The translations under genes were made by a program, and so were the position numbers. Below are positions 1,640 to 5,644 of a DNA stretch of 5,644 nt, one piece after another (the stretch's first letter is position 1; every line of letters starts with the position of its first letter). The DNA comes from Thermoplasmata archaeon (lineage in GTDB: Archaea; Thermoplasmatota; E2; UBA202; JdFR-43). The notes beneath the pieces are model-generated. The model made no database searches. It was not told the origin of the DNA and saw nothing but the letters and a program-made list of their open reading frames with translations. The stretch is taken from contig QMSU01000086.1 of NCBI GenBank assembly GCA_003650975.1, positions 1 to 5,644 of the forward strand, written 5' to 3'.

Positions 1640-4600
1640 ATGAAAAATATGAAATCCCATTTATTGGTGTATGTGGTGGCAAGTTTTTTACTCACTCTTC
1701 CCATGCTGAGCACAGTGCACAACAGCCAGGAAATGCTGGAAGCCTCCGCATCACTGTTTTCAGGAGAAAATCATGGTGAAGAGCGCTGGAGCAGTGACGA
1801 TGATTTGATATTTATCCATCATTCCTGCGGGCAGAACTGGCTCACCAACAGTCTGCATGCGGCGCTGCTCGCCAAGGATTATATTGACGAGCGCAATGAC
1901 ATTTACTACGGCACCGATCTCTCGCCTGATGCAGGGAGACCCGATTCTCTGGCACCCACACCCGGTGACAGCACCAACATGAACCACTGGATTTTATGGT
2001 TCAATGACTACCTTGGAGGGGTGAAGACACACGGGTGCAGCGACGGCGTAAACCGCATCATCATGTTCAAAAGCTGCTATCCCATCAGTAACATCGAGGA
2101 CAATGGCACCGAGCCGGGAGACCCGTTCAGTTCCTGGCAGACACTCGCCAATTATAAGGCCGTCTACCGTCACTACAACGGCTCTGGGAACACCTATACG
2201 TATAACGGTTACACCTACAGACCGCTGGAGGATATATTTGCCCAGAACCCCGACATTTTATTCATCCCGGTTACGGCACCACCGCGCCACTATGCACCAA
2301 CGGATGCCACCAATGATGCAGAGGCGCACCGTGCAAGGGTGTTCAACAACTGGCTCAAAAACGACTGGCTCACCAGTTACAATACCAATCATCCCGGCCT
2401 CAACAACGTGGCAGTTTTTGACTGGTTCGATGTGCTGGCTTATCCCGACAACCATTCGAGTCATCCCAACCGGCTCAGGGCTGAATATGGTGGCGAAAGC
2501 GGAGACTCCCACCCCAATAATGTGGCCAACAGCTATTCCACGCAGGTGTTTGCCACCAATCCGGATAATTTTATCGACCAGGCATGGAATGCGTTCAATG
2601 CCTCGGACATCATACCACCTGAAATTTCAGATGTGGCCGCCTTCCCCAACCCCCAGGAAATGAACGGATGGGTGAACATCACCGGCAACGTCACCGATGA
2701 TTCTGGTGTTAATATGGTGAAAGTCAACATCACCGGTCCCGCCGGTTTTACCCCGGTCAACGTCACCATGGCGGGAGGAAGCTACCATTACAACGCCACC
2801 TACGCCGTTGCGGGGACCTACACATATTTCATCTGGGCCAATGACACCAGCGGCAACAGCAACATGTCGGCACCGCATACTTTCACCATCACGCTTCCCT
2901 CCTCCTTCGACCTCAGAAACGTGAACGGAACCAGTTATGTGACTTCAGTGAAACACCAGACCGGCGGCACCTGCTGGACCCATGGTGTCATGGCGGCCAT
3001 TGAGGGTAATCTACTCATGACCGGAAACTGGGCGGCAGCAGGTGAAACAGGCGAACCGAATCTTGCGGAATACCATCTTGACTGGTGGAACGGATTCAAC
3101 AAGCACAACAATGATGACACCTCGCCTCCCACCGGCGGCGGACTCGATGTGCACAACGGAGGTGATTACCGGGTGGCATCGGCCTACCTTGCACGGGGAG
3201 AAGGAGCGGTGTACAGCCCGGATGCCAACGACGGCACCGAATATGACGACAACTGGTATTACAGCGCACCAGAAAGATACAATGCGAGCTATCACTATTA
3301 TTACCCGAGGGACATTGAATGGTATACGGCAGGTGCAAATTTGAGTACCATTGACCTCATCAAGCAGAAAATCATGACCGAGGGCGTCATGGGAACATGC
3401 ATCTACTGGGGAGGCGGATTTTATTCATCCACCACTGATTCCCACTATCAACCTCCCACGGACACCAATGACCCGAATCATGCAGTGGCCATTGTGGGCT
3501 GGAATGACAGCAAGGTGACACAGGCACCACTCCCGGGGGCATGGCTCTGCAAGAACAGCTGGGGGAGCGGCTGGAGCGGGGACGGGTACTTCTGGATTTC
3601 GTATTATGATAAGCACTGCTGCAAACACCCGGAAATGGGTGCGGTTTCCTTCCAGAATGTGGAACGTCTTGCATATGACCACATCTACTACCATGATTAC
3701 CATGGATGGAGGGATACCATGACAAACTGCACAAAGGCGTTCAACGCATTCAATGCCACGGGCGATGAGACATTGCAGGCGGTGAGCTTTTACACCGCCA
3801 CCGATAATGTGAGCTACACGGTGACTATCTATGACCGCTTTCAGGGGGGCGTGCTGCAGGACGTGCTCTCAACAAAATCAGGTACCATCAGCTACACCGG
3901 CTTTCACACCATTGACCTGGATACTCCCGTGACGCTCACAGCAGGTGATGACTTTTACATTTATCTGGAACTTTCGGCGGGGGGCCAGCCCTATGACCGT
4001 ACCTCTGATGTCCCGGTGCTGCTCGGCTCATCGTCCCGCACCATCGTGAACTCATCCGCAAACCCGGGTGAGAGCTACTACTGGAATGGCGTATCATGGG
4101 TGGACCTGTACAGTTTCAACGATACGGCGAATTTCTGCATCAAGGGGTTGAGTGTTGCTCCGGGCAGGCCCGAAATAACAGATGTACAGGCTCTTCCCTC
4201 GGTGCAGACAGCAGGCGGGTGGGTGAATATAAGCTGCACTGTCACCGATGCTGATGGCATCGATGAAGTGTACCTCAACATTACCGAGCCTCTCAACACC
4301 AGCAACTTCTCCATCAGCGGCAACCATACGGGCGACACCTATTACTGCAACCGCACCTATGACATTCCGGGGAACTATTCCTTCTTCATATGGGCCAATG
4401 ACACCACCGGGGCGAGCAACAACTCAGCGGTTCATTCCTTCACCATCACACCGCCCTCATATGTGTGGGTTGACGACGACTATCATTCCTCCACTCCCGG
4501 ATGGAATGTCACTCGCTTTGATACCATTCAGGAGGGCATAAATGCAGTCGCAGAGAACGGCACCGTCTACGTGTTCAACGGAACCTACTATGAAAACATA

Positions 4601-5644
4601 GTGGTGAATAAAACCGTTAATCTTGTTGGCGAGGGGAGAAATGGCACGATTATTGACGGTGGTGGAAGCGGGGATGTGGTATATGTTTCTGCCGAGCGAG
4701 TGAATATCTCCGAATTTACCGTAAGAAACGGCGGTGAGGGAGGCATATATCTCACCGGTGCACACTACTGCATTATCTCGCATACTCTGGTGTACAGCAA
4801 TGGAGATGCGGGAATTCTCCTCAATCAATCAGAAAACAACACCATTGAAGACACCGTCGCGCGCAACAATACCTATGATGGCATTCTTCTTGAGTCATCC
4901 CATCATAATACTGTATCGGCGGTTACTGCATGCTGGAACGGAATTGGAAATAACGGGGAAGGGATATTACTCATGAATTCACATTACAACTATATAACAA
5001 ACACCACCACCTATGAAAATGGAGAGGACGGAATCATTCTTGAACCGTCCAGCAGCCACAACATCATCTCAAATAATACCGCATATGGAAATGCAGATTG
5101 CGGGATTCTCATATCCACAAACAGCAATGACAATGTTCTTTTCAACAACACCGCATGCAACAATACCTATGACGGGATTCTGGTGGAAACCTCTTCTGGA
5201 ACAAGTATCACCGCAAACACCGTTCACCACAATGGAGAGGACGGTATATATCTTTTATCTGCCACCAACACCACCATTCACGCCAATGACATTCATCACA
5301 ACAACCAGCACGGCATTTATATGGATTCTTCCTCCCACAACATCATAACGAGCAATACAGTACAGTACAACACGGGGAGTGTTCTCGGAGATGATGTGGG
5401 TAAGGGCATCTCGCTCTACCATTCACACAACAATACCATCGCAAATAACACAGCTGATTGCAATGATGAAGTGGGCATTAATTTGATGGAATCCCGGGAC
5501 AATATTCTTACCGGAAACACGGCAAATAATAACTATGATGATGGAATTTTCCTGTATATTTCCTCAAACAACACGCTCGCCAACAACACCGCATGCAACA
5601 ACAGCGGCGAAGCCATATACGGGAGCGATGGCATTGTGCTGTAC
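1640..5644 (+). CDS. Giant secreted multidomain protein: SGNH-like domain, Ig, C1A cysteine protease, lectin-like, Ig, beta-helix (3' partial)
   Basis: One open frame of 1335 codons leaves the right edge. Residues 1-30 form a signal peptide (hydrophobic core LLVYVVASFLLTLPML, no lipobox). Residues about 55-320 carry IHHSCGQNW (Ser62), FKSCYP (143-148), FIPVTAPP (208-215) and DSHPN (289-293), resembling the ordered blocks of SGNH-fold hydrolases; this is tentative. An Ig-like domain follows (about 326-418). Residues about 423-672 are a papain-family protease with Gln440, Cys445 (TCWTHG), His614 (NHAVAIVGW) and Asn639 (KNSWGSGW), all present. About 675-838 is the lectin-like domain that usually follows such archaeal C1A proteases. 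A second Ig-like domain spans about 841-940. From 942 a VWVDDDY-type entry leads into right-handed beta-helix coils to the edge. About 48 N-x-S/T sequons suggest heavy glycosylation. It likely acts outside the cell on proteins or glycans; no substrate can be named. An in-frame stop at 1634 limits the start to 1640 or 1649. Confidence 0.85.
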   Translation, partial: MKNMKSHLLVYVVASFLLTLPMLSTVHNSQEMLEASASLFSGENHGEERWSSDDDLIFIHHSCGQNWLTNSLHAALLAKDYIDERNDIYYGTDLSPDAGRPDSLAPTPGDSTNMNHWILWFNDYLGGVKTHGCSDGVNRIIMFKSCYPISNIEDNGTEPGDPFSSWQTLANYKAVYRHYNGSGNTYTYNGYTYRPLEDIFAQNPDILFIPVTAPPRHYAPTDATNDAEAHRARVFNNWLKNDWLTSYNTNHPGLNNVAVFDWFDVLAYPDNHSSHPNRLRAEYGGESGDSHPNNVANSYSTQVFATNPDNFIDQAWNAFNASDIIPPEISDVAAFPNPQEMNGWVNITGNVTDDSGVNMVKVNITGPAGFTPVNVTMAGGSYHYNATYAVAGTYTYFIWANDTSGNSNMSAPHTFTITLPSSFDLRNVNGTSYVTSVKHQTGGTCWTHGVMAAIEGNLLMTGNWAAAGETGEPNLAEYHLDWWNGFNKHNNDDTSPPTGGGLDVHNGGDYRVASAYLARGEGAVYSPDANDGTEYDDNWYYSAPERYNASYHYYYPRDIEWYTAGANLSTIDLIKQKIMTEGVMGTCIYWGGGFYSSTTDSHYQPPTDTNDPNHAVAIVGWNDSKVTQAPLPGAWLCKNSWGSGWSGDGYFWISYYDKHCCKHPEMGAVSFQNVERLAYDHIYYHDYHGWRDTMTNCTKAFNAFNATGDETLQAVSFYTATDNVSYTVTIYDRFQGGVLQDVLSTKSGTISYTGFHTIDLDTPVTLTAGDDFYIYLELSAGGQPYDRTSDVPVLLGSSSRTIVNSSANPGESYYWNGVSWVDLYSFNDTANFCIKGLSVAPGRPEITDVQALPSVQTAGGWVNISCTVTDADGIDEVYLNITEPLNTSNFSISGNHTGDTYYCNRTYDIPGNYSFFIWANDTTGASNNSAVHSFTITPPSYVWVDDDYHSSTPGWNVTRFDTIQEGINAVAENGTVYVFNGTYYENIVVNKTVNLVGEGRNGTIIDGGGSGDVVYVSAERVNISEFTVRNGGEGGIYLTGAHYCIISHTLVYSNGDAGILLNQSENNTIEDTVARNNTYDGILLESSHHNTVSAVTACWNGIGNNGEGILLMNSHYNYITNTTTYENGEDGIILEPSSSHNIISNNTAYGNADCGILISTNSNDNVLFNNTACNNTYDGILVETSSGTSITANTVHHNGEDGIYLLSATNTTIHANDIHHNNQHGIYMDSSSHNIITSNTVQYNTGSVLGDDVGKGISLYHSHNNTIANNTADCNDEVGINLMESRDNILTGNTANNNYDDGIFLYISSNNTLANNTACNNSGEAIYGSDGIVLY
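2615..2896 (+). repeat. First copy of the paralogous Ig-like domain
   Basis: Residues about 326-418 of the large protein run from PPEISDVAAFPNP to APHTFTIT. The ending TYFIWANDTSGNSN is nearly the same as SFFIWANDTTGASN in the second copy (4160-4456). The DNA is also close: TTCATCTGGGCCAATGACAC against TTCATATGGGCCAATGACAC. This indicates internal duplication, with the protease and lectin-like domains lying between the copies. Confidence 0.65.
4160..4456 (+). repeat. Second copy of the paralogous Ig-like domain
   Basis: Residues about 841-940 run from PGRPEITDVQALPS to VHSFTITPP. They match the first copy in the opening PEI(S/T)DV, the GGWVNI(S)/NGWVNIT strand, and the closing FIWANDT and FTIT. 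It separates the lectin-like domain from the beta-helix and probably serves as a spacer or stalk. Confidence 0.65.
4727..5644 (+). repeat. Beta-helix coil array, about 13 units of about 23 codons
   Basis: From residue 1030 the pattern N-x-x-(D/E)-G-I-x-L-x-x-S-x-x-N-x-I-x-x-N-T-A/V-x-x recurs roughly every 22-24 residues, the signature of parallel beta-helix (PbH1/NosD-like) coils; one coil (about 1223-1255) has a longer insert. DNA copies are partly conserved: a 21-base stretch containing AACACCGCATGCAACAA is identical at 5143-5163 and 5581-5601. AACAATACCTATGA recurs near 4865 and 5158, and AATGGAGAGGACGG near 5020 and 5231. Confidence 0.75.

Follow-up and report, generated by a model that had tools for sequence, protein, structure and literature searches.

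What might one archaeal polypeptide do that joins a predicted esterase-type module to a papain-type protease and an adhesin-like repeat? The question is raised by a 5,644-nucleotide stretch of DNA (the window) from a Thermoplasmata archaeon (GCA_003650975.1, contig QMSU01000086.1), which is the complete contig C113 of genome G000 (1.56 Mb in 313 contigs, 85% complete, 2% contamination). From an ATG at position 1640 to the contig end at 5644, the plus strand holds one stop-free open frame of 1335 amino acids, so that the uninterrupted frame described in an earlier, sequence-only reading of this DNA is borne out by its open reading frames. The gene encodes a genuine and unusual combination of domains that are each of a known kind, a reading carried by the continuous frame, the matches to families, the folds predicted, the kept catalytic-type residues and a related metagenomic protein, P0002; its most interesting part is a widespread SGNH-fold family without a name. 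The best explanation, to which we assign a probability of about 0.5, is a likely secreted chain in which an SGNH-fold module, an immunoglobulin-like (Ig-like) spacer, a Cwp84-type C1A-lectin unit, a second Ig-like spacer and a beta-helix likely act together at the cell surface on glycoprotein or matrix material, as a combined glycan de-esterase and protease. The parts of the chain are the following.

1640..1720, + strand: N-terminal signal peptide (residues 1 to about 27), assigned by eye from the sequence only
1772..2629, + strand: SGNH-fold module (residues 45-330), from an AlphaFold2 model and Foldseek/VIA matches
2630..2884, + strand: Ig-like spacer 1 (residues 331-415), weak Big_13/Big_7 matches below cut-off
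2885..3682, + strand: C1A papain-type protease (residues 416-681), PF00112
3683..4150, + strand: lectin-like domain (residues 682-837), PF18560, 121.7 bits against a cut-off of 27
4154..4453, + strand: Ig-like spacer 2 (residues 839-938), PKD_4 at 19.3 bits, below the cut-off of 27
4454..5644, + strand: right-handed beta-helix (residues 939-1335), PF05048, PF13229 and TIGR03804 repeats, running past the contig end

Domain calls in the window were based on Pfam and NCBIfam profile searches with family cut-offs. The protease matched PF00112 in two pieces at 54 bits (cut-off 20.7) and has Gln440, Cys445 (2972-2974), His614 (3479-3481) and Asn639 (3554-3556), all four of which are kept in 12 relatives wherever alignment A2 covers them (L003 stops short of the Gln and Cys positions). 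The Peptidase_C1 match and these residues place the domain in peptidase family C1A, as the earlier reading had proposed, and its lectin-like domain was likewise recovered, PF18560 scoring far above cut-off. PF18560 directly follows C1A, and both superpose in a predicted model on Cwp84 of Clostridioides difficile (PDB 4ci7, 4d59), pointing to a Cwp84-type unit; in this model the predicted local distance difference test score (pLDDT) is below 50 for 193 of 425 residues, mainly weakening the C1A half, and the Z score to Cwp84 leans on the more confident lectin-like half. The long beta-helix is evident from NosD (PF05048, 148.6 bits) and Beta_helix (PF13229, 145.9 bits) matches well over their cut-offs. 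The NosD copper-insertion protein was rejected as an identity, since TIGR04247 reached 106.5 bits against a cut-off of 300, and the repeat is a generic beta-helix. The two proposed Ig-like spacers resemble each other (48% identity), and the Ig and PKD matches of Pfam there are weak and below cut-off. By eye, the N-terminus (residues 1-44) has the basic start and hydrophobic run (residues about 8-22) of the signal peptide that had been suggested.

The first module matched no Pfam or NCBIfam model, though its proposed SGNH-like character is supported by its predicted fold. The AlphaFold2 model (pLDDT 94.4; predicted template modelling score 0.92) has an alpha/beta/alpha SGNH fold and matches SGNH hydrolases in Foldseek/VIA comparisons; prediction of residues 50-325 had been set beforehand as a test of the domain, and a hydrolase fold was the result. 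The putative nucleophile Ser62 (1823-1825), in the motif HHSxGxxWL, lies three residues past strand 1 of the model, at the place of the Block I serine, and is kept in 299 of 305 fetched proteins; His291 (2510-2512), in an SHPN motif, is kept in 298, and these two and the Lys-Ser-Cys of the strand-3 motif are each kept in 297-301. Gly91, just past strand 2, is a Block II candidate (249/305). The same predicted fold is found in BF3764 (4ppy), BT0569 (4hf7), sialate O-acetylesterase (7pzg) and the OatA catalytic domain (5ufy), with which the module shares a Ser after strand 1 and a His before the C-terminal helices, and to which it is 9-14% identical. SGNH hydrolases typically carry GDS and GxND motifs, whereas this module has HHS where GDS and FKSCxPxS where GxND is expected, and its Block V Asp stands at -2. 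Ser62 and His291 would make the module an esterase acting on O-acylated sugars.

The module has many relatives. A genome scan yielded 405 confirmed stretches, of which the best 80 are considered here (44 closer, L022-L065, and 36 distant, L066-L101), and searches of the protein collection gave the best 120 of 162 matches for the whole region and the best 120 of 613 for the SGNH piece alone. Names in the closer group come from two archaeal and 13 bacterial phyla, some records having no phylum name. The module is joined to many kinds of tail among the matches listed and the 305 fetched proteins, and in the latter it is N-terminal with a tail in 235, alone in 45, internal in 13 and C-terminal in 12. 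In the window's phylum it occurs in five of 389 genomes, its own included. Over about 270 residues, the window's copy is 75% identical to bacterial copies L023, L024 and L025, with four-fold degenerate sites agreeing at 35/86, 32/87 and 31/84, respectively, and 79% identical to archaeal L022, with agreement at 13/81, indicating that the protein was held while silent sites became saturated. Because of this identity, the saturation and the rare, patchy distribution, the module appears to have been transferred between archaea and bacteria. The tree does not enter this argument: archaeal rows fall in several places, and an approximately unbiased test does not reject one archaeal clade (p = 0.283; 5 rows against 37). 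No vehicle for the spread was seen, as none of 55 pattern matches in viral contigs was confirmed by tblastn and no relatives were found in phage or plasmid records. The profile of alignment A1 has 632 positions with tails kept, and its 5152 matches may include tails, so this count is not used. In genome G090 the conserved first block of a close archaeal copy (L104 and L065) contains an in-frame TAG, and the copy is cut off further on by the contig end; the TAG may be an error, the mark of a broken gene or a recoded codon.

A likely secreted module that is 75% identical between an archaeon and three bacterial genomes, with many tails and no Pfam or NCBIfam match, points to a common extracellular substrate, for which no name was found in the literature searched (titles and abstract openings, with few subscription papers). 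Tentatively, we consider it quite possible that the module represents an SGNH-fold enzyme family without a name, marked by HHSxGxxWL, FKSCxPxS and SHP, that serves as a surface cassette exchangeable between archaea and bacteria, is held near 75% identity by one shared extracellular polymer, and is wired here to a cysteine protease as a two-step glycoprotein-stripping enzyme.

Hints of the substrate come from neighbouring genes and accompanying domains. An exosortase gene is present in seven of the 36 distant loci (L066, L070, L074, L075, L079, L086 and L095) compared with none of the 44 closer loci (phmmer; Fisher p = 0.003), a split that was applied after the neighbours were seen and in which many loci are short. 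EpsI accompanies the exosortase in six of the seven, and a second GDSL-type gene, by eye without the usual Ser and His, is found in L066, L070, L074 and L079 as well as in L071. NCBIfam models place the exosortase over a cut-off in L086 and L066, and in L095 over the cut-off of a broad signature model; they also recover EpsI in L086 and L066 and an XrtA-associated FemAB protein in L086, where a glycosyltransferase-like gene matches only under the cut-offs. The available text of the 2006 PEP-CTERM/EpsH paper links that system to exopolysaccharide (PMC1569441). CBM96 is among the precomputed domains of 10 of the 120 relatives listed, and a few have glycosidase- or lyase-type domains. Together, the exosortase and EpsI neighbours and these domains suggest that the substrate is a glycan ester, indirectly so for the window's own protein. 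Neighbours in the close group share no partner beyond small sets of two to five loci.

In the proposed working of the chain, the SGNH module would deacylate O-acylated sugar chains, laying the protein backbone open to cutting by the adjoining C1A protease; the lectin-like domain may assist in holding the target, and the beta-helix, along with the missing C-terminus, would anchor the chain to the cell surface or to its substrate. If the module is active, deacylation and cleavage of one target would be combined in a single archaeal chain, with consequences for the way glycoprotein and cell-wall debris is opened. As far as the available text of a screen of 180 archaeal genomes goes, extracellular peptidase genes fail to track the actual protein degraders in incubations (PMC9123169), suggesting that such genes alone are a poor guide to feeding, own-surface remodelling or attack.

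Several observations weigh against a glycan de-esterase and protease. We know of no relative of the N-terminal module with a reported activity. Strand 3 ends in FKSCYP with the Block III Asn, a residue that SASA and PatB1 proteins manage without according to a review, not at its usual place, and Asp289, the Block V candidate, is at -2 rather than -3 from His291 (Asp in 211 and Asn in 62 of the 305 proteins). An hhalign comparison of the profile with six GDSL-type sequences, five of which appear on inspection to be without the usual Ser and His, gave no match; PF00657 matches two distant relatives slightly under its cut-off; and searches of PDB sequences with alignment A1 and a distant relative returned no SGNH entry. 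The exosortase loci belong to relatives 33-37% identical, outside the window's close group. By analogy, the lectin-like domain may not bind sugar, a matter left open by the Cwp84 authors in the available part of their paper, and the contig end cuts the gene, removing the C-terminus with any anchor. Conceivably, if unlikely, the SGNH fold is inactive or serves binding alone, and the protein is in essence a Cwp84-like protease of its own cell's surface coat, where the SGNH and beta-helix domains place it as adhesins. The displacement or absence of Block III and V residues would suit this explanation, as would the action of Cwp84 itself on a surface-layer protein, described in the same paper, and the 13 kindred proteins in which C1A follows the N-terminus without another module. 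Retention of Ser62, His291 and Lys-Ser-Cys in nearly all of the fetched proteins, however, is more than mere binding seems to need.

The likeness to Cwp84 has its limits. Gln and Cys are spaced by 5 in the window protein and by 6 in Cwp84 (Gln110, Cys116), and KNSWG stands in place of the KSSWG of Cwp84; the Asn287 of Cwp84 lies outside its active site according to the Cwp84 paper. Unlike Cwp84, the window protein has an Ig-like spacer where a propeptide would precede C1A, has no cell-wall-binding repeats matched by Pfam (its C-terminus being missing), and carries an SGNH-fold module and Ig ahead of C1A and Ig and a beta-helix behind the lectin-like domain. An orthologue of Cwp84 was thus rejected, the propeptide and cell-wall-binding repeats being unmatched in Pfam, with later repeats possible past the contig end. 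Within the same class, archaeal C1A-lectin proteins such as L011, L013 and L126 are 57-72% identical over the unit (12 aligned), and 39 of the class's 80 genomes, the present one among them, carry the lectin-like family. In the 13 archaeal C1A-lectin proteins whose start could be read, no SGNH module lies ahead and C1A follows the N-terminus directly; by eye, no beta-helix is evident behind the unit in L011-L014 and L126. In L126 (G056 contig C48, frame 89-3121), an FG-GAP beta-propeller-like repeat is, by eye, apparently inserted within the lectin-like domain.

A third explanation, which we regard as improbable, is attack or predation on other cells, in which the esterase and protease would open a neighbour's surface while the beta-helix binds it. 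The secreted look and the pairing of two putative hydrolases with an adhesin-like repeat would fit, but no partner, immunity or delivery gene was seen, an absence that decides little on a short contig with one other tested gene call, and the helix is no special sign, as NosD-type repeats match 24 places in the genome, three of them within the fusion gene.

As to the join itself, the order SGNH-Ig-C1A-lectin-Ig-helix was found only in the window's own protein among the 120 region matches listed, blastp with its C1A-lectin unit against the 305 fetched proteins matched only itself, and no frame of at least 60 residues in loci L022-L104 encoded that unit. The earlier view that an esterase-like domain ahead of C1A and lectin is unusual therefore holds in these sets and among the 13 starts read, and neither an SGNH-C1A fusion nor an HHS-type module was described in the titles and abstract openings listed. 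P0002 (1832 amino acids) shares the SGNH module, one Ig spacer and the beta-helix with the window protein (71% identity over residues 52-418, 62% over 939-1335), and its Ig is nearer to spacer 2 (59%) than to spacer 1 (45%). In place of C1A-lectin it has a stretch that resembles another beta-helix and matches DUF1565 weakly (17.8 bits, cut-off 20.3).

An assembly or binning chimera of an SGNH protein with a C1A protein, suggested by the 313 contigs, the lack of another protein of this domain order and a 31-nucleotide exact match to a paralogue contig within C1A, is scarcely credible, since P0002 holds both flanks in one protein, so that a chimera would take two false joins, both keeping the frame, and since the match starts at 2955, within C1A and past its border with the Ig spacer. 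These 31 bases are the longest match to six fetched stretches of the same genome, and between the two Ig-coding stretches no run of identical bases exceeds 16. Moreover, among the whole genomes searched, G005 of the same family holds close relatives of both halves (SGNH part 79%, C1A-lectin 71-72%); metagenomic proteins match the SGNH part at up to 83% among matches listed. Since P0002 keeps both flanks, and given this evidence on the join, a C1A-lectin cassette was probably inserted into an SGNH and beta-helix surface protein, other partial copies being present in the same genome. Contigs C241, C118 and C62 carry such partial C1A-lectin paralogues at their edges, and those on C241 and C118 could come from opposite ends of a single gene.

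P0002 then runs on through further helix and PKD to what looks, by eye, like a paired repeat some 160 residues long at its C-terminus. Its end matches 58 places in G000 on many contigs, 19 of them within the last 215 residues, making a C-terminal surface unit of this type a fair guess for the missing end of the window protein. At the other end of the gene, a TATA-like stretch adjoins the start codon, and upstream, at 1006-1281 on the plus strand, lies a small 2TM-domain membrane protein (PF13239, 79.6 bits).
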